The notes beneath the pieces are model-generated. The model saw only the letters and a list, made by a program, of their open reading frames with translations, was not told the origin of the DNA and made no database searches. The translations under genes were made by a program, and so were the position numbers. Of a DNA stretch of 17,832 bases, positions 5,268-17,209 are shown piece by piece (position 1 is the stretch's first letter; every line of letters begins with the position of its first letter). Source of the DNA: an uncultured Prevotella sp. (GTDB lineage Bacteria > Bacteroidota > Bacteroidia > Bacteroidales > Bacteroidaceae). The DNA lies in NCBI GenBank assembly GCA_934229335.1, contig CAKQDQ010000038.1, forward strand, positions 1 to 17,832, in the 5' to 3' direction.

Positions 5268-8024
5268 CTACATTTCAGTAGGCAGTGTGCCATATTCTTC
5301 TTTGAAACACTTGCTGAAATACGACGGTGTGGCAAATCCTACCTTGTAGGCTACCTCCGCTACCGTTCCGTCGTGTGCTTGCAGTAGCTGCCGTGCTTTT
5401 GTCAGTCTTGCCTTGCGTAGTATCTCGACAGGCGTGAAGCCTGTCAGTGCTTTTACCTTTCGGTAGAGCTGCACTCTGCTCATGCCCATTCGCTCTCCTA
5501 TCTCCTCTACGCTTAGTTCGCTGTCTTCCATAGAAGCTTCTATCACCTCTTTAAGTCGTGACATAAAGGCGTCTTCCTGCCTTTCGCTTCTGCTCTCTGG
5601 CACCTTTTCTTCTTGTTGTTGCTTTTCTGCTTTATTCTGCTCGGCGTTGCGCCAGCGTACCTTCAGCAGAGTGCGGTTGCGCAGCAAGCTCTCAGCCTGC
5701 GCCAGTAGCACACTTGATGAGAAGGGCTTTTTGAGGTAAGCGTCGGCACCGCTCGCCAGTCCCTCCACCTGTTGCTCGTTGAGAGTGCGTGCCGTGAGCA
5801 GTATTACGGGTATGTGGCTGGTGACAGAGCTTTCCTTCAGCTTCTCGCACATCTCCACACCGTCCATGTATGGCATCATGACATCGCTGATGACGATGTC
5901 GGGCACATACTTTAAGGCAACGTCCAGTCCGTCACGTCCGTTTGCCGCCTCTATCACGTTGTACGTCTCCTGCATCACGGACTTTACGTATCCGCGCACC
6001 TCCGTATTGTCGTCAACAACGAGCAGCAGCGGTTTGTTCTCCTCGTAGTTCTCCGTCAGCATCTCCTTGTTTCGCTTCTCGTTGATGTCGGAGTTAGCGT
6101 AAGGTTCAAGTTGCAGTCTCAGCGCATAGTCGTCATATCCGCTTTCTCCTTCCTTCACGGCGTCGTTCTCCTCTTTATATTCTGGCTGTGTGGCAGGGAA
6201 GGTGAACAGCATCTCTACGGCAGAGTTGCCTATGCTGCGTGCCTCTACCTTGCCGTGATGCAGTTCGGTGAACGCCTTGATGTTGGCAAGACTTATCACG
6301 GTTCCGCCCGTCATTCCCTTGCTGTACTTGAAGCGTCGGAACACATCCTTTACCGACTCTTCGTCTACAGGCACTCCTCCGTTTACGCACTTCAGCGTGA
6401 AGCAGTCTTCCTCTCGTGTCAGTTTAAACGTGAGCACGGTGCCAGCAGCCGAGTATCGTAAGGCTATCTGTATGAGGTTCAGGAATATTCTGCCCATTTT
6501 CTCATAGTCAGCCTCTATCAGTTCGCCCACAGCGTCGCTGGTGTCGAGCTTTATGTACATGAACTTCTTGCGCAGCATATCGTCCACCATCTCCACCCAG
6601 TGCGTCATAGCTTCTCCGAAGTCGAAGCGTGAGAGGTGCAGGTGCATCTTGCCTTCATCCATTTTTCTGAAGTCGAGAATCTCGGTCACGAGGTTCATCA
6701 GTGCTCCAATGCTGCGGTTTACGGTCTGCAACAGTTCGCGGTTCTTTCCCTTAATATTCTTGTCGGCAAGCAACCGCTCTATGGGGTCTGCCATCAGCGT
6801 TAGCGGTGTGCGGAGCTCATGGCTCACATGGGTGTAGAATGACAGTTGCTCGTCGGTCAGCTGCTCTACCTCATGCGTCAGTTTCAGTTGTTTGTCGTAG
6901 CTCTCTTGCAGTTTCTCGCTATACTTCGCCTTGGTTACGTATGCGTAATACGCATATCCGCACGCCACTAAGAGCAACGAGGCTATCAGTGCGAGTGTCA
7001 ACAGGTATACCCTTTGGTTGTCAAGCAGATGCAGCGAGTTAGCCACCCTTGCGTGTAGGTTGTCGAGATACGCCATCTGGTTAGTGACCTCTTGGTTCTG
7101 CATATATAGCAGGTTGGCGTTGTCTTTCGTCACGAGTGCTCCCGTGAGCTTTTGGTCCGTCTTGTACTTCTCGCCCTTTAGTATGTTGAGTGCGAGTTCT
7201 ATCAGCTCGTCACCGTTGGTTGGATTGATATATGTAGCGTCGAGTATCCCATCGCACACTAACTTTATGCCTCCTTGGTCGCCAGGCAGTCCGTCTATGC
7301 CATAGAAGCGTATCTTCTTGTTTTTCAGCACTCCAGCTTCTTCTAATGCCTTTCTTACGCCCATTGCCATTTGGTCATTGGCACCATACACGGCGTCGGC
7401 GTTAGCGAGAGTGGCTATTCTCTGCTTTGCTGTCTCGTAAGCATTTTTTTCAGTCCAGTTACACTCTAACGAGTCTATCACCTCAATGCCAGGGTAGTTT
7501 CTCAGTGCATTGCGGAATCCCACGTGTCTGCCTACTGATGGCGAGGTGCCTCGTTGTCCCATTATCTCCACTACTCTGCCCTCACCTTTGAGTTGCGACA
7601 CTATGTATTGCCCCATCTGCCAACCCATCTTATAGTTGTCGGCAGCTACAAAGGCGGTATACTTCTTTGTGTCCACCTTACGGTCAAAGAGTATTATGGG
7701 TATTCCGCGGTCGTAGGCACGTTCCACGGCAGGTGTTACAGAAGTGGTAGTGTTAGGGGTGACGATTAGCAGGTCTACGCCAATGTTCACAAGGCTGTCT
7801 ATTTGTCGGGTCTGCTCTTCGTCGTTATTGAAGGCTGCAGCGAATACCATGTCTACTTCGTCTTTGGAGAACGCCAGTAGCTTCATCTCATCGTTCTGCT
7901 TATTGTGCCATACATCATCTGTAAATTGCGACACGCCAATCTGGTATCTCTTCTTGCCGCCGGTGCATGAAGAGACAATCAGTGCCAACAGTATCACTAT
8001 ATGATATAGTAAGAATTTACGCAT
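5268..8024 (-). CDS. Hybrid two-component system regulator with periplasmic sugar-binding sensor and degenerate ATPase
   Basis: A 918-aa one-protein sensor/regulator. Order: signal or anchor segment with a lipobox-like VSSC (C20); a periplasmic type I binding-protein domain (about 27-305, ribose/LacI-like); one membrane helix (about 338-362); HisKA with H402 in SHELRTPL; HATPase (about 500-610); receiver (665-780) with D671, D672, acceptor D714, T744 and K766; AraC-type HTH (822-918). The layout resembles the Bacteroides fructose sensor BT1754. The ATP-binding motifs are eroded: the N-box Asn is Ile520, G1 reads VNGGVP without its Asp, and G2 reads GTVISL without two glycines. The likely targets are the transporter and esterase genes downstream (inference). 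Confidence 0.93.
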   Translation of the reverse strand: MRKFLLYHIVILLALIVSSCTGGKKRYQIGVSQFTDDVWHNKQNDEMKLLAFSKDEVDMVFAAAFNNDEEQTRQIDSLVNIGVDLLIVTPNTTTSVTPAVERAYDRGIPIILFDRKVDTKKYTAFVAADNYKMGWQMGQYIVSQLKGEGRVVEIMGQRGTSPSVGRHVGFRNALRNYPGIEVIDSLECNWTEKNAYETAKQRIATLANADAVYGANDQMAMGVRKALEEAGVLKNKKIRFYGIDGLPGDQGGIKLVCDGILDATYINPTNGDELIELALNILKGEKYKTDQKLTGALVTKDNANLLYMQNQEVTNQMAYLDNLHARVANSLHLLDNQRVYLLTLALIASLLLVACGYAYYAYVTKAKYSEKLQESYDKQLKLTHEVEQLTDEQLSFYTHVSHELRTPLTLMADPIERLLADKNIKGKNRELLQTVNRSIGALMNLVTEILDFRKMDEGKMHLHLSRFDFGEAMTHWVEMVDDMLRKKFMYIKLDTSDAVGELIEADYEKMGRIFLNLIQIALRYSAAGTVLTFKLTREEDCFTLKCVNGGVPVDEESVKDVFRRFKYSKGMTGGTVISLANIKAFTELHHGKVEARSIGNSAVEMLFTFPATQPEYKEENDAVKEGESGYDDYALRLQLEPYANSDINEKRNKEMLTENYEENKPLLLVVDDNTEVRGYVKSVMQETYNVIEAANGRDGLDVALKYVPDIVISDVMMPYMDGVEMCEKLKESSVTSHIPVILLTARTLNEQQVEGLASGADAYLKKPFSSSVLLAQAESLLRNRTLLKVRWRNAEQNKAEKQQQEEKVPESRSERQEDAFMSRLKEVIEASMEDSELSVEEIGERMGMSRVQLYRKVKALTGFTPVEILRKARLTKARQLLQAHDGTVAEVAYKVGFATPSYFSKCFKEEYGTLPTEM

Positions 8025-8196: not shown

Positions 8197-9369
8197 TTAT
8201 GTGTTATGGATTTGTGAATCTCTCCTGTATTTCTTTCTGTCAGGCTTGCCGTTGGCTGTTCGTTCTATGTGTGATACCTGCCTATACATCAGTGGTACCT
8301 TGTAACGCTCTATGCGTGAGGCTATATGCCTGGCGATGCTGCGTTTGTCGAACTGGTAGCCTTCGGTGGTTACTACAAGTAGCTCTGTACATTCGCCCAA
8401 TATGGGGTGCGGCTGGGCAATACATAGGCAGTCGGCAATGGATGGGTGCGACAGTGCCGCGTCTTCTATCTCCGTGGGGCATATCTTGTAGCCGCCCACG
8501 TTGATAATGTCGTCGCTGCGACCTTGTATGTGCAGCCTTCCTTCGGTGTCGATGTAGCCCTTGTCGTTGGTAACGAAGGTGTCTTCCAGCAATGTCACTC
8601 CGTTACAACTCGCCATCAGTGTGTCGCCCTTGCAGGCTATGCGTCCATCGTCGGTGATAAAGACGTCGGAATGTGGCAGTGGTTTTCCGAGACATCCCGG
8701 TATGCATGAGCCGTCGTTGTAGTTGTAGGTGGCTATGATGCCTGTTTCTGTAGAGGCGTAGGTGTTGTAAAGTCGTGTGTTTGGCAGCAGCTGACATAAC
8801 TTTAACATATCGCTATGTGGCATTGGTGCCGCTCCTGTTTCTATGAACTCTATGCGGTCGGCGTATTGTGCCAAGCGGTCGGCAGAGAACTGTAACAGTA
8901 TTCGTATGTTACTGGGAACGAGGAATGTGGCGTACCTTGCCGCGCGCCCATCGGCATAATGCTCTGGTGGTGTAGCGAGGACGCGGAAGAAGGCTTCTAT
9001 GTCTCTCATTCCGTCGGGTAGTATCAGCAGCGTTGCGCCAACGGCAAGTGTTGGGAATATCTTTGACCAACAGCCGAGATGTGTCATGTCGCCAGCAATG
9101 ATGAAGACGAGGTTAGGGTTATATCCCTGCCCCTTTATCAGGTTGTCGGTATTGGCGTCCACCGCTTTCTGCGTTATTAGTATTTCCTTTGGCGTTCCCG
9201 TAGTGCCTGTGGTATGCAGTTTGAAGTTGCCTTGCCAGCTGTCGCCTAATAGTGGTATGGGCAGTGGAATGTTATTATCCATTCGCCTCCACAGTTCGGT
9301 GTATGTGATGCGTTCGTTGCCGCAGATGATGGCGGTGCGCTCAGCGAAGTCATTGTTTCTCTTCATCAT
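8197..9369 (-). CDS. AMP-forming acyl ligase (ANL superfamily)
   Basis: A 390-aa adenylate-forming enzyme, expected to activate a carboxylic acid as acyl-AMP and load it on CoA or, more likely here, on the carrier protein of the same operon. The core motifs are present: phosphate loop TTGTTGTPK (53-61), YASTETG (204-210), GYID (271-274), the hinge region RSDDIINVGGYK (284-295), and the C-terminal catalytic lysine K375 in NGKPDRK. It is shorter than the usual 500 or so residues because the N-terminal subdomain is reduced to about 50 residues before the phosphate loop. The ATG (9369, or 9366) overlaps the preceding gene by about 20 bp. Last gene of the operon; the substrate may be an aryl or fatty acid (inference). 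Confidence 0.9.
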   Translation of the reverse strand: MMKRNNDFAERTAIICGNERITYTELWRRMDNNIPLPIPLLGDSWQGNFKLHTTGTTGTPKEILITQKAVDANTDNLIKGQGYNPNLVFIIAGDMTHLGCWSKIFPTLAVGATLLILPDGMRDIEAFFRVLATPPEHYADGRAARYATFLVPSNIRILLQFSADRLAQYADRIEFIETGAAPMPHSDMLKLCQLLPNTRLYNTYASTETGIIATYNYNDGSCIPGCLGKPLPHSDVFITDDGRIACKGDTLMASCNGVTLLEDTFVTNDKGYIDTEGRLHIQGRSDDIINVGGYKICPTEIEDAALSHPSIADCLCIAQPHPILGECTELLVVTTEGYQFDKRSIARHIASRIERYKVPLMYRQVSHIERTANGKPDRKKYRRDSQIHNT

Positions 9370-9769
9370 ACTCGTTGTTTGGCATTGGTGTTACGGTGTA
9401 GGTTCTCTTTCCGGCAGAAAAAGTGTTGCGTTGCTGTCTCATGGCGAGGAGCAGTCCGCGCAGGTCACGTCGCAGCCCGATACGTATGTACCACTTGTTG
9501 AGCGGTCCTGCTACGTTATGCAGTCGCACCTTACCACGCTCTATAGAGTAAGAGAAATCGATGAACGACACTCCAAACTCGTTGACGATGCTTCCTTTTA
9601 TGTTCTTGCCTCCGTCATTATACATCAAGCACACACCGCTAACATACGCCTTTGGCAGCTCTATGGTCACGGCATAGCGTGCTTTAGCTCCAGCTGTAGG
9701 CAGAAGCTGCGCTTGGGCTATGGCAACGGAGAAGAGTAGGAATAGGAATGGCAGTATGTAGTGTCTCAT
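9350..9769 (-). CDS. Small secreted protein of the synthase operon, function unknown
   Basis: A 139-aa protein with a clear signal peptide (cleavage likely after AIAQA, residue 20). The mature part is short and beta-rich in appearance, with blocks such as GSIVNEFGVSFIDFSY and HNVAGPLNKWYIRIGLRRDL, and a charged C-terminus. I do not recognise the family with certainty. Its place directly after the LolA-like gene (5-bp gap) recalls the DUF3261-type proteins next to LolA genes in aryl-polyene clusters, so a role in moving the product to the outer membrane is possible. The stop overlaps the ligase start by about 20 bp. Confidence 0.75.
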   Translation of the reverse strand: MRHYILPFLFLLFSVAIAQAQLLPTAGAKARYAVTIELPKAYVSGVCLMYNDGGKNIKGSIVNEFGVSFIDFSYSIERGKVRLHNVAGPLNKWYIRIGLRRDLRGLLLAMRQQRNTFSAGKRTYTVTPMPNNEYDEEKQ

Positions 9770-9774
9770 AGCAA

Positions 9775-10407
9775 TTACTTAAAATTACTACCGTTAAATT
9801 CGCTGTTGCTGACGTTGGCGTTAAGGCGTATGTTGTCTAACACTATATCGGTGCAGTCGCCATTACGCTCATACATAGTGACACGGTTTACCGTTGCCGT
9901 TTGTTTTCCGAATGTCAGCACTATGCGCGAGTACATCTGCTTCATGTCTTTCTTTAGTGGAACAAGCGTTGCGGTATAGTTCTTGGCGTCAGTTTTCACG
10001 CTGACCTTAAACGTCTTACTGTCGGTGATGCAGCGTCCCAGCATACTGTTCATCATGATGCGCGCTATTTCCTTAAACATCTTGTTGCGGTTTACGTCAA
10101 TAACGTCGCTTCGTTTTCCTTTGCGCAGCAGCACCTTGTTGCCATTGAGTATGAAGGTGTATGTGTATGGCGATGTATATTCCCACCTCAGTTTATCGCT
10201 CTGACTGTAGCACATTCTTCCCTTCGACACCATTTTGTCGCCAAGCATCTTCAGCGTCTTTGTCTGCGTGAACGTAGCTTGCAGTGTCTTTGTATTGGCA
10301 GCAGCGCGGCTGATTGCGTTAATGGCGGCTTGCTCCTGCTTTGTTGTCTGTGCCCATGCGGTACAAAGCGTTAATAATGTTATGATTATTAATAATATTC
10401 TTCTCAT
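9775..10407 (-). CDS. LolA-like outer-membrane lipoprotein/lipid carrier protein
   Basis: A 210-aa periplasmic protein with a signal peptide (MRRILLII...CTAWA, cut near residue 19). The mature part has the LolA features ATFTQTKTLKMLGDKMVSKG followed by KLRWEYTSPY, typical of the open beta-barrel that carries lipids between the membranes. House-keeping LolA carries lipoproteins; LolA paralogues inside aryl-polyene and flexirubin clusters are thought to carry the polyene lipid. The operon context favours the second role (inference). It starts 97 bp after the membrane-protein gene, with no convincing promoter in between. Confidence 0.88.
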   Translation of the reverse strand: MRRILLIIITLLTLCTAWAQTTKQEQAAINAISRAAANTKTLQATFTQTKTLKMLGDKMVSKGRMCYSQSDKLRWEYTSPYTYTFILNGNKVLLRKGKRSDVIDVNRNKMFKEIARIMMNSMLGRCITDSKTFKVSVKTDAKNYTATLVPLKKDMKQMYSRIVLTFGKQTATVNRVTMYERNGDCTDIVLDNIRLNANVSNSEFNGSNFK

Positions 10408-10495: not shown

Positions 10496-10514
10496 GCATA
10501 ATTATTAATTATGC
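10496..10514. repeat. Perfect A/T-rich hairpin over the DMT gene stop
   Basis: GCATAATTA-T-TAATTATGC gives a 9-bp perfect stem with a one-base centre. It spans the stop codon of the DMT gene at 10505. It is weak in energy and has no U-tract, so a termination role is doubtful. Confidence 0.5.
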
Positions 10515-10855
10515 ATTATCACAGCGCACCCTATTATAATAAGGAGTACGCCGAGCCATTTAGTCCAGTCTACCGTCTCATGGAATATTACGACAGCGGC
10601 TATCATGCCGAAGACATAGCTCAGCGACACTAATGGGTAAGCCACGCTGAGTGGATAATGCTTCATGATATATGCCCACAACAGTCCTGCCGCTGTGAAG
10701 CTGACACCGCATAGCGCGAGTCGCCAGTTGAGCAACATCGCCCTGAGGTATGCAGTGTTCATCTCAAACCGCGGTGTATGTTCAAGTCCTAACTTCAACC
10801 ACACCTGTCCTATAGCGAGCAGTATACTCTGTATGACACAAAGGTAGTAATTCAT
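10505..10855 (-). CDS. Small DMT/EamA-type membrane protein (four helices, ArnE/SMR-like)
   Basis: A 116-aa inner-membrane protein with four hydrophobic segments. It starts MNYYLCVIQSILLAIGQVWLKLG, where the GQ and K within helix 1 resemble ArnE/ArnF and other small DMT proteins, and it has YPLSVAYPLVSLSYVFG in the third helix. I place the start at 10855, because the longer frame from 10888 would run into the ketosynthase gene; from 10855 the gap to that gene is 8 bp. ArnE/F-like proteins flip undecaprenyl-linked sugars. In this operon a flippase for a lipid intermediate is plausible, but drug or metabolite efflux cannot be excluded. Confidence 0.85.
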   Translation of the reverse strand: MNYYLCVIQSILLAIGQVWLKLGLEHTPRFEMNTAYLRAMLLNWRLALCGVSFTAAGLLWAYIMKHYPLSVAYPLVSLSYVFGMIAAVVIFHETVDWTKWLGVLLIIIGCAVIMHN

Positions 10856-10863
10856 CTTACCTA

Positions 10864-12618
10864 TTATCCCTTCTTTAGTATTACGCACCTTGCATACAGC
10901 TCTTTCGGTTCTTCTTCGCCCAAGCGTGCCGCAAAACTGCGCGTCAGTGGTGTTGACTCATCGGCAGCTACTACCAGCACGTTGCTGGCGTTACCGTTTT
11001 CGATCATTCTCTTAGCGTCGCGCATTGCCCATGCCATTGACTCTGCCCCCTGCGTATATGTCACGTTATATCCGTGGCAATGTGTGCGTATGGCGATGTC
11101 GCTGCCCACGGTGTTGTGCGTGCTCTGCATAAAGAGGGTAGGCTTCAGCAGTTGCTCTCCGCCTTCGCACATATCGGTGAGAAACTTCTCGCTGTTTTCC
11201 ATCATACCGTATGCCGTAGCCGACACTATGGCGTCGGGGCTTTCTACTGCCGCCTGTTCCATCGCCATCAGGGATGCCGTGGTAGCTGCCTTCATCAGTC
11301 GGCACATACGTCGTCCTTCTCTTGGCGATATATATCCACTGTTCTGCGCCAGTGCTTCCGTTCCGTCTATGGTGACATCCGCTGCCACTGTTACGGCATT
11401 GCGTTTCTCGCCACATGGCTCTACGCTCCATGGCTCACGGCATAACAGCAGCGAGCTGTCGTTGCCTCCAAATCCGAAGGCGTTGCATAGTGCGTAGTCT
11501 ATCTTCGCCTCAGTAGGTACTGTTACAGGGTTTACGCACGTCTCGTCAGCTTTAGTGCAGCCTACATTTGGTGGTATAAAGCCATGTTGCATGGCAAGTA
11601 TCGTTATCACCGTCTCTATCGACCCTGAGGCTGAGGTGGTATGCCCCGTCATGCCCTTGGTGCTTGATACTGGCGGTATGTTGTTGCCAAACACTCTACG
11701 CAACGCTGCGCTCTCGCTGGGGTCGTTATTGGGTGTTCCTGTGCCGTGGGCATTGACATACTGTATCTTCTCGGCACTTACGCCTGCCATGCTTAACGCC
11801 TCTGTCATAGCGAGATACGCGCCCTCTCCATTGTCTGACGACGCTGTTTGGTGAAATGCGTCGCAGCGGTTGCCGTAGCCTCCCACGTAAGCCTTTGTCT
11901 TCTCTCTCGCGGCGTCGGGCTCTATCACTACGTATGCTGCTCCCTCACCGAGGTTCAGTCCTGCTCGCGTAGCGTCGAAGGGTCTACAAGGCTCATGGTC
12001 GAGTATCATCAGCGTGTTGAAGCCATTGAGATGAAACTTGCTCAAGGCTTCTGTTCCACCAGCTATCACAATGTCCGCTTCGTTGTTTCTCAGCATCTCA
12101 CACCCCATGATGATGGCGTTAGCGGCTGATGAGCAGGCGGTAGAGATGGTGCACACCTCGCTGTCGCCTATGCCGCACAGCTCTGCTATATGGTGTGTGC
12201 AACTGCCGCAGTCGTGGCGTGTGAAGTATCTCAGTGCCTCGTCGTCGGTCTTCATATCGTTGAAGAGGCGTTCCGTCACGTCCATTCCGCCCACTGTGGT
12301 GCCTGATATAAACACTACTCTCCGTCCCTGCAACTCTGTTGGTGTTATGCCAGCGTCTGCCATGGCTTGCTTCAAGGCTATGGCTCCCATCAGTGTGGTG
12401 CGACTTACTATTGCGTCTGACGCTATGCCGAGCTTGACCTTCATCTCACTGTCTGACATCTGCACCTCGCCTACGGGCAGCTCCTTGTGTACGGTGTCGA
12501 GATAGCGCACGCTACGTATGCCGCGCTCTCCGTTGCTTACGGCTCGCAGCACCTCGTGGCAACTATTGCCAATGGCGCATACCACACCGAGTCCTGTTAT
12601 AGATAAGTGTTGTGCCAC
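10864..12618 (-). CDS. Beta-ketoacyl synthase fused to a cysteine-less ketosynthase-like (CLF-like) domain
   Basis: A 584-aa protein. Residues 1-395 are a complete FabF-like condensing enzyme with the triad C162 (STACSSA), H291 (NAHGTGTP) and H326 (KGMTGHTT). Residues about 400-584 look like the N-terminal half of a second ketosynthase (PF13723 type), with HNTVGSDIAI and VLVVAADES, but where the nucleophile Cys should be it reads TQGAES (522-527), so it should be inactive. Aryl-polyene synthases use a separate KS (ApeO-like) and a small chain-length-factor-like partner (ApeC-like); this protein looks like both in one chain. It starts with GTG, whose G is the last base of the ACP stop codon (TAGTG), so the two genes are tightly coupled. 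Confidence 0.9.
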   Translation of the reverse strand: MAQHLSITGLGVVCAIGNSCHEVLRAVSNGERGIRSVRYLDTVHKELPVGEVQMSDSEMKVKLGIASDAIVSRTTLMGAIALKQAMADAGITPTELQGRRVVFISGTTVGGMDVTERLFNDMKTDDEALRYFTRHDCGSCTHHIAELCGIGDSEVCTISTACSSAANAIIMGCEMLRNNEADIVIAGGTEALSKFHLNGFNTLMILDHEPCRPFDATRAGLNLGEGAAYVVIEPDAAREKTKAYVGGYGNRCDAFHQTASSDNGEGAYLAMTEALSMAGVSAEKIQYVNAHGTGTPNNDPSESAALRRVFGNNIPPVSSTKGMTGHTTSASGSIETVITILAMQHGFIPPNVGCTKADETCVNPVTVPTEAKIDYALCNAFGFGGNDSSLLLCREPWSVEPCGEKRNAVTVAADVTIDGTEALAQNSGYISPREGRRMCRLMKAATTASLMAMEQAAVESPDAIVSATAYGMMENSEKFLTDMCEGGEQLLKPTLFMQSTHNTVGSDIAIRTHCHGYNVTYTQGAESMAWAMRDAKRMIENGNASNVLVVAADESTPLTRSFAARLGEEEPKELYARCVILKKG

Positions 12619-12878
12619 TACTTCTTACGGTTCTTTTCTACGTATTCCGCTATTGTCTTCACATTTTTGAAGATTGCCTTACCTTCTGACGCATTGGCGA
12701 GATGTATGCCGTAGTTCTTGTCGAGCATTACTATCAGCTCCAGCGCGTCAATGGAGTCAAGTCCTATGCCATCGTCGCCAAAGAGTGGAGCGTCGTCTGT
12801 AAACTCCTCCATAGTGAGGTCTTCGAGGTTCAGGGCTTCCTTGATTTGCATCTTCAGATTCTTTATAAGTTCTTCCAT
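12618..12878 (-). CDS. Acyl carrier protein of the synthase operon
   Basis: An 86-aa acidic acyl carrier protein. The phosphopantetheine site is GIGLDSIDALEL with Ser42, followed by the usual helix. I chose the ATG at 12878 (MEELIKNLKM) rather than the longer frame from 12935, whose extra residues are encoded by the A/T-rich leader and a promoter element. It carries the growing chain for the ketosynthase encoded next to it. First gene of the minus-strand operon. Confidence 0.92.
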   Translation of the reverse strand: MEELIKNLKMQIKEALNLEDLTMEEFTDDAPLFGDDGIGLDSIDALELIVMLDKNYGIHLANASEGKAIFKNVKTIAEYVEKNRKK

Positions 12879-12924
12879 TGTCTTTTTTTTCTTATATATA
12901 TAAAAAAGGTGTATTACTGTCGTG

Positions 12925-12932
12925 CAAAGGTA
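12925..12932 (-). promoter_or_regulatory. -7 promoter element for the ACP-synthase operon
   Basis: TACCTTTG (minus strand) followed by GC matches TAnnTTTG and predicts a leader of about 40 nt before the ACP start. The -33 element is not obvious. It lies back to back with the PorZ promoter in a 170-bp divergent region. Confidence 0.5.
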
Positions 12933-12993
12933 CATCTTTTTCCGCTAAATGCTCACTAAAATATCACATATTTCGTAGATTAAAGAAAAAAAA

Positions 12994-13025
12994 GTTGGTA
13001 TATTCGTTAACTCTTACTATCTTTG
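12994..13025 (+). promoter_or_regulatory. Promoter for porZ
   Basis: GTTG at 12994-12997 and TATCTTTG at 13018-13025, separated by 20 nt, fit the Bacteroidetes -33/-7 pattern. Transcription would start near 13031, giving an 18-nt or so leader before the ATG at 13049. Confidence 0.65.
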
Positions 13026-13048
13026 CAGGGCAAAAATGACATATTTTT

Positions 13049-16733
<3,685 letters not shown>

Positions 16734-16789
16734 TCTCTATTCTTTCAAGCTTTATCTGACGCTTATTTCAACACAAGCCCCCTAAAAGC

Positions 16790-16872
16790 ATTAACGAGAG
16801 ATTAACGTTAGATTAACGAGGATTAATGTTAGATTAACGAGGATTAATGTTAAAAGAAACTGTGCGAAGCAC
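16790..16872 (+). repeat. ATTAATG-array repeat, copy C
   Basis: Six ATTAAcG/ATTAATG motifs spaced 10 or 11 bp, followed by a short A-rich stretch and GTGCGAAGCAC. It has two more motifs than copies A (2170-2231) and B (17411-17472). It ends 50 bp before the second ACP gene, so it lies in its upstream region. Confidence 0.85.
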
Positions 16873-16921
16873 CAACACTGGTAATCACAATTATACATTA
16901 CACATTATTAATTCAACAAGA

Positions 16922-17209
16922 ATGAACCACGACCTTACAGCGGAAATACGCTCAATACTTGAAGACGCACTGCCACTGGCAGACCTCGACTCCGACTTTC
17001 TGTTCGCCGAGCTTAGCTCTCTCGACATCACTACCATCATGATGCTGCTGTCAGAGAAATACAACATCACACTCGACTCTCACGACGTAACACCAAAAAA
17101 CTTCATGACGCTCAATGCTATCGTGGAGATGGTAACAAGGAAAGCCCCCCACCCTTCCCTCCCCCACGGGGGAGGAGAGAATACCTCAAAGGATAATATA
17201 GTCAAATAG
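16922..17209 (+). CDS. Second, atypical acyl carrier protein with repeat-encoded tail
   Basis: A 95-aa protein whose first 74 residues look like an acyl carrier protein: a helix 1 (LTAEIRSILEDALP), then FAELSSLDITTIMMLLSEKYNI. The phosphopantetheine Ser should be Ser33, but the usual DSL is SSL, and the helix after it is less standard. Residues 75-95 (PHPSLPHGGG and a polar end) are encoded by a GC-rich palindromic repeat and flanking DNA, so the gene seems to have lost its original stop. The start at 16922 gives a normal ACP N-terminus. It may serve the synthase operon or a pathway outside the window. The fold call is fair; activity is unproven. Confidence 0.75.
   Translation: MNHDLTAEIRSILEDALPLADLDSDFLFAELSSLDITTIMMLLSEKYNITLDSHDVTPKNFMTLNAIVEMVTRKAPHPSLPHGGGENTSKDNIVK
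17145..17177. repeat. GC-rich palindromic repeat, copy 2, inside the 3' end of the ACP gene
   Basis: Contains CCTCCCCC-AC-GGGGGAGG, an 8-bp perfect stem, flanked by CCCACCCTTC and AGAG as in the copy at 15278-15316. It is translated as the tail of the second ACP. Confidence 0.75.

Follow-up and report, generated by a model that had tools for sequence, protein, structure and literature searches.

A ketosynthase fused to a half-size chain-length-factor-like domain in a flexirubin/aryl-polyene-type gene cluster of Prevotella and its Bacteroidales relatives

Ketosynthases (KSs) condense acyl units through an established Cys-His-His active site, and a chain-length factor (CLF) contributes half of the KS dimer and gives the acyl pocket its shape. 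In the aryl-polyene synthases, KS and CLF are the heterodimer ApeO:ApeC (PDB 6QSP), in which ApeC retains mostly the first thiolase fold (PMC8358021, available text). The earlier note on the locus described here, generated from the letters alone, had taken the same background as its starting point, namely an aryl-polyene KS and a half-size CLF made as separate proteins, in agreement with that source. One-chain KS-CLFs are likewise known, from PUFA synthases (PMC13311796, PMC9702510, available text), the PfaC KS-CLF (PDB 6RIW) coming from a multidomain PUFA megasynthase (PMC13311796). A further point of comparison is the flx flexirubin cluster of Chitinophaga pinensis, which combines several KS-like genes with LolA, glycosyltransferase, acyltransferase, exporter, reductase, dehydratase, and ligase genes; its beta-ketoacyl synthases FlxC, I, L, N, and O are separate, and the available text of its description leaves fusion unmentioned (PMC3992019). 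KS:CLF pairs and the one-chain KS-CLF of PUFA synthases are thus already known, while in the literature searched, largely outside the subscription journals and partly in excerpt, a KS-CLF fusion in Bacteroidota is undescribed and the KS-CLF didomains found are those of PUFA synthases. New against that literature are the fusion of a half-size CLF to a free-standing polyene KS, a repeated change between one gene and two, and a second, cryptic pair.

The fusion lies in the window, the whole stretch of 17,832 nucleotides of Prevotella DNA that was analysed. On the minus strand, 10864..12618 encodes a fused KS-CLF protein of 584 aa, with a GTG start and a TAA stop at 10864-10866; the frame is free of internal stops, and a plus-strand reading of 10864-12618 is broken by them. 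The earlier note had placed a single ORF at these coordinates correctly without giving its strand. Residues 1-395 (11434..12618, minus strand) form a complete FabF/ApeO-like ketosynthase with Cys162, His291, Lys321, and His326. Here PF00109 (residues 6-235, E 5.9e-32) and PF02801 (residues 243-354, E 8.8e-35) both match over their curated cut-offs, and their presence together with Cys-His-His makes this a FabF/ApeO-type ketosynthase. Residues 396-584 (10867..11433, minus strand) comprise a linker and a half-size CLF-like domain. PF13723, the half-KS family to which the aryl-polyene CLF ApeC belongs, matches at residues 434-558 (E 4.4e-10, 40 bits vs a cut-off of 25) and covers only positions 26-144 of the 223 in the profile. 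The C-terminal region, which had been read as resembling half a KS, does carry a ketosynthase-fold match over cut-off. By Pfam, this CLF part of about 190 aa is followed by no further domains.

Set beside ApeO:ApeC, the window protein shows the same division into an active KS and an inactive partner reduced essentially to the first thiolase half; its KS matches ApeO (6qsp_A, E 8.8e-42), its C-terminal half carries PF13723 and reaches ApeC (6qsp_B) at E 0.1, the Arg-Arg pair is invariant, and a carrier protein gene adjoins. Unlike ApeO and ApeC, which are two proteins, the window pair is one 584-aa ORF, and its CLF half of about 190 residues is shorter than the 239-residue ApeC chain in 6qsp_B. 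The order of KS and then CLF within one chain is that of PfaC. Yet the solved PfaC chain has 923 residues and room for a full-size CLF, whereas the window protein is a free-standing enzyme with a half-size one.

The residues of the two halves accord with this division of labor. Cys162, His291, and His326 are exactly as the earlier note had named them, and with Lys321 they are kept in 54/54 aligned fused proteins (window included). The TQGAES motif, which it had seen where the nucleophile cysteine should be, occupies residues 522-527; Ala525 aligns with the KS nucleophile Cys162 (codon at 11044..11046, minus strand, placed by alignment with coordinates by arithmetic), and Gln523 stands two positions earlier. 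Across 54 sequences, column 525 reads A11 K11 E8 D6 S5 Q4 G3 T3 R1 C1 P1. These 11 different residues rule out a conserved alternative nucleophile in the C-terminal half, from which a catalytic nucleophile is absent.

Glutamine replaces the cysteine in some CLF/KSQ proteins, and Gln523 is common (42/54, with His in 10/54). Conceivably, then, the C-terminal half could be a decarboxylase of KSQ type, producing starter units through Gln523. This reading is very improbable: Gln523 was rejected as a KSQ-type residue for lying off the nucleophile position by two residues, homologues whose CLF is a separate gene mostly have His at the Gln523 site (17/20), and, going by the KS fold, the half would be without the second thiolase half that bears the catalytic histidines.

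The likeness to ApeC itself is faint at the level of sequence. The match to 6qsp_B (E 0.1) is weak, although it includes a His-Asn motif common to the window protein (...QSTHNT...) and ApeC (...MSVHNS...). When the C-terminal half alone was searched against the PDB, ordinary FabF KSs (1j3n, E 6.3e-4) ranked before ApeC, and chance-level matches to an unrelated tRNA enzyme also appeared. Arg436-Arg437, present in 54/54 fused proteins, probably corresponds to Arg30-Arg31 of Acinetobacter (A. baumannii) ApeC, conserved surface residues proposed to contact the carrier protein (PMC8358021, available text).

Relatives establish that the fusion is no accident of this assembly. A scan of a genome-contig collection returned 67 loci, which with the window gave 68 rows classified by ORF: 37 short fusions (572-636 aa), 6 long fusions (704-789 aa), 20 split pairs, and 5 KS-only rows. 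Among the last, L052 (its KS stop is 49 bases from the contig end, too close for its CLF to be judged) and L063 (its KS is cut by the contig end, and it was omitted from the tree) are limited by contig ends, and L065-L067 are distant KSs. Both parts were readable in 62 loci and the window, with 43 fused (37 with a truncated CLF, 6 long) and 20 having a separate CLF gene beside the KS; since the scan was seeded with six fused-protein peptides, two from the CLF half, this ratio is not a frequency. The question of how common the fusion is had been raised by the earlier note, and the counts of 43 fused and 20 separate-neighbor rows speak for a functional pairing of the two parts. The existence of relatives with separate genes might suggest that the single frame is an assembly or frameshift artefact of this contig. 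Such an artefact is practically excluded, being refuted by a protein elsewhere (P0001) of 95% identity, equal length (584 aa), and equal domains, by the 37 short fusions, which come from many assemblies, and by frames of at least 580 aa in 22 of the 48 matched genomes of one family. Nor is the fusion due to chance, given P0001, the 37/68 rows with a short fusion, and a protein search in which PF13723 accompanied KS domains in every one of the 120 matches listed, of 7,999 scored. It is a real, widespread Bacteroidales variant of the known ApeO:ApeC pair, with PfaC as one-chain precedent.

In the split loci, the CLF gene follows the KS in 20/20, at spacings from a 170-base overlap to a 46-base gap, the larger overlaps being possible start errors as ORF starts were taken mechanically. 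The separate CLFs of the Bacteroidales split loci are 322-370 aa long. One of them (L034) matches PF13723 and PF00109 with a weak, below-cut-off trace of PF02801, the second KS half, and another (L055) matches PF13723 and PF00109 only. By this Pfam content, the separate CLF looks like a longer KS relative, of which the short fusion keeps just the first half. One contig, titled Clostridiales bacterium, has split versions of both this pair and the second pair discussed below (L043:7835-12195), perhaps through mislabelling, mis-binning, or gene transfer.

A fairer measure of how often fusion occurs comes from genome samples of the order, phylum, and family, searched for PF13723 at E 0.001 or better. 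In the order sample, 76/295 genomes matched at 93 places, of which 7 fall in open frames at least 595 aa long; in the phylum sample, 27/296 genomes matched at 29 places, with one in such a long frame, which belongs to the centre genome; and in the family sample, 48/251 genomes matched at one place each, 22 in frames of at least 580 aa. These tallies each count once the centre genome (G001), which was picked for having the fusion and is in the long-frame sets of the order and family samples as well, and four long-frame matches (one order, three family) cross a stop codon, with a few partial. A long PF13723 frame probably marks a fusion, and this reading agreed with the ORFs in 8/8 genomes checked (6 fused, 2 split). 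Genomes with a fusion-sized frame showed no second PF13723 match (none in 22/22 of the family sample and none in 7/7 of the order sample), but single CLFs per genome are not universal, as 17/76 matched order-sample genomes have two places. At the unfused phylum-sample loci (L070-L076, L078, L079), the CLF gene adjoins a KS gene in 7/9; at L071 no KS was found in the 3.4 kb examined, and at L075 a partial KS lies about 750 bases from the CLF gene.

The KS tree places the 37 short fusions and one split row in one group (support 81/93) and the long fusions in three places. An approximately unbiased (AU) test rejected a single clade of all fused rows, and with it a single origin (p 0.0015), as well as one clade of long fusions (p 0.017); one clade of short fusions was not rejected (p 0.60), and the tree that holds them together is slightly better. 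The tested groups were chosen after the tree had been viewed. The rejections imply that KS and CLF switched between one gene and two more than once. Such a tree, here with a midpoint root, several long end branches, and unsettled bootstrap, counts changes and reads fusion and splitting alike. The KS-CLF merger seems to have happened more than once; as the wider genome samples contain mostly separate genes, the two probably joined repeatedly rather than split repeatedly.

The structure prediction of the chain alone, which the earlier note had proposed, bears on how the two halves are arranged. AlphaFold2 folds the whole 584-aa chain into one compact unit (pLDDT 92.8, pTM 0.94), with a short stretch at about residues 396-408 joining the C-terminal domain to the KS. 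By Foldseek, the model matches the single-chain PfaC KS-CLF 6riw at TM 0.78 (rank 7 by E-value), and lone KSs among the matches listed reach 0.59-0.64. A match to the KS part only could score at most 395/584 = 0.68; 6riw is the sole match listed above this ceiling, so that the resemblance to a solved single-chain KS-CLF extends beyond the KS part. The 6riw match has an rmsd of 7.8 Å over 743 columns, and the VIA-align rows span only about residues 1-399, the C-terminal half lying outside them. The docking of this half, predicted by the model to be on the KS dimer face, accordingly rests on one Foldseek TM-score and the pTM.

FabF-type KSs are homodimers, and the window protein might form ordinary KS:KS homodimers too, its C-terminal half being an appended stabilizer or a platform for carrier docking (in a 2:2 or domain-swapped assembly) that has no influence on chain length. 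The short connecting stretch would suit such an arrangement, and a single-chain prediction fits internal docking and a swapped dimer equally. Against it stand the separate CLF gene beside the KS in all 20 split relatives and the KS:CLF heterodimers of the solved aryl-polyene relatives (PMC8358021, available text), and we regard it as unlikely. The window protein is instead, with good confidence, a single-chain KS:CLF pair of a type II polyene (aryl-polyene/flexirubin-type) synthase, a self-contained pseudo-heterodimer whose dead C-terminal half is predicted to sit on the KS dimer face. A built-in KS-CLF pair was also what the earlier note had proposed, and PF13723, the variable nucleophile site, the neighboring split genes, and the 6riw model match all support it. 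Condensation would be performed by the N-terminal KS with Cys162, His291, and His326. The half-KS, catalytically dead on this model, would pack onto the KS dimer face as ApeC does on ApeO, making the chain its own pseudo-heterodimer; it would offer the carrier protein a basic docking patch (Arg436-Arg437) and close the far end of the acyl pocket, and it may set chain length. Fusion would also fix the KS:CLF ratio at 1:1.

The genes around the fusion, all on the minus strand, run in the order carrier protein, KS-CLF, EamA-like protein, LolA2_flexi, weak LolB2-like protein, and AMP ligase. The acyl carrier protein gene upstream (12618..12878; PF00550; NF006617 at 71.1 bits vs 70) has a listed ORF extending to 12935, with an inner ATG at 12878 as the likelier start; its TAG stop shares one base with the GTG start of the KS-CLF (TAGTG). 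Next after the fusion comes a small EamA/SMR-like membrane protein (10505..10855; PF00892), whose ORF is listed to 10888 and whose ATG at 10855 clears the KS-CLF stop. It is followed by a LolA2-type lipoprotein-carrier-like protein of flexirubin clusters (9775..10407; NF053544 LolA2_flexi, 219.9 bits vs a cut-off of 125), a possible, weakly matched LolB2-like partner (9350..9769; NF053540 LolB2_flexi at 19.9 bits, below the cut-off of 60, and no Pfam match), and an AMP-forming acyl/aryl ligase (8197..9369; PF00501 and PF13193). Adjoining the ligase, 5268-8024 encodes a hybrid two-component regulator of 918 aa, whose periplasmic domain is of sugar-binding type and whose DNA-binding end is of AraC type. 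Upstream of the carrier gene (12618-17209), where relatives have a second KS, the window has three other genes instead: a divergent PorZ-like gene (13049-15277), an esterase (15261-16733), and another carrier protein (16847-17209).

The company of KS, carrier protein, ligase, and LolA-type transport protein, features familiar from such clusters and in part from the available text of PMC3992019, assigns the window to a flexirubin/aryl-polyene-type cluster, of which it is only a part. A fuller set surrounds the homologue in L001: a reductase, another KS, two carrier proteins, an LpxL-like acyltransferase, a thioesterase, a FabA-like protein just below the Pfam cut-off, a glycosyltransferase-acyltransferase, two FAD enzymes, and an MMPL exporter. 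This cluster resembles the C. pinensis flexirubin polyene cluster, sharing its gene kinds except the ligase, and the window has LolA2_flexi and the ligase (PMC3992019, available text). No reductase, dehydratase, or exporter like those around L001 was found among the window proteins scanned, and no ammonia-lyase or resorcinol gene was recognized among the window and relative proteins scanned.

A second KS (KS2) recurs in 48/67 loci. It has a half-KS partner of its own, fused to it in 34 loci and encoded separately in the other 14, and this state varies independently of that of the first pair. The fused form, exemplified by L006:7986-9683 with homologues in 34/67 loci, has ORFs of 507-614 aa in total (one 481-aa copy is cut by a contig end) and keeps its Cys, His, Lys, and His in 27/27 aligned copies. 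Elsewhere the partner is a separate gene of 164-228 aa (for example L043:8986-9669 and L055:9081-9710). Pfam matched neither the C-terminal part of fused KS2 in the 4 proteins scanned nor the stand-alone partner in the one scanned (L043). By profile comparison, the stand-alone partner is related to the fused KS2 C-terminus (E 4.7e-77) and to the window-type CLF half (E 5.9e-7, probability 92%). Compared directly with the KS2 C-terminal part, the CLF part (E 0.0011, probability 20%) and the split CLF (E 0.0011, 21%) give weak matches, so the kinship is clear only via the stand-alone form. For the AlphaFold2 model of the L006 KS2 protein (pLDDT 89.9, pTM 0.93), the best PDB match is the PfaC KS-CLF (TM 0.77), lone KSs reaching 0.54-0.58 among the matches listed. 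Both pairs could be judged in 46/67 loci: 27 have both fused, 10 have a fusion of the window-type pair alone (L038, with a broken KS2 gene, among them), 5 have one of KS2 alone, and 4 have neither pair fused. Seven further loci have the stand-alone partner without KS2, and neither KS2 nor its partner was found in the window. Separately, L006:2525-3748 carries a third, FabF-like KS of Hallella colorans in two ORFs (225 + 170 aa), perhaps because the gene is broken or the sequence is in error.

Tentatively, and at somewhat less than even odds, Bacteroidales polyene clusters may run on two parallel single-chain KS:half-KS enzymes, the window KS-CLF and KS2 with its Pfam-invisible half-KS family, each arising from repeated merging of neighboring genes, and perhaps one serving the earlier and the other the later elongation steps of a single polyene; in the window lineage, the second pair may have been lost or relocated. 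The failure of Pfam to see the KS2 partner in any protein scanned suggests that annotations naming plain ketosynthases understate what such clusters encode. In type II synthases, product length is held to be decided by the CLF, but a complex of two proteins is difficult to titrate or exchange. A KS:half-CLF that occurs naturally as one chain offers a minimal, self-contained system in which control of chain length is testable via one short domain, and the series from long separate CLF through long fusion to short fusion shows how much CLF a KS may need.
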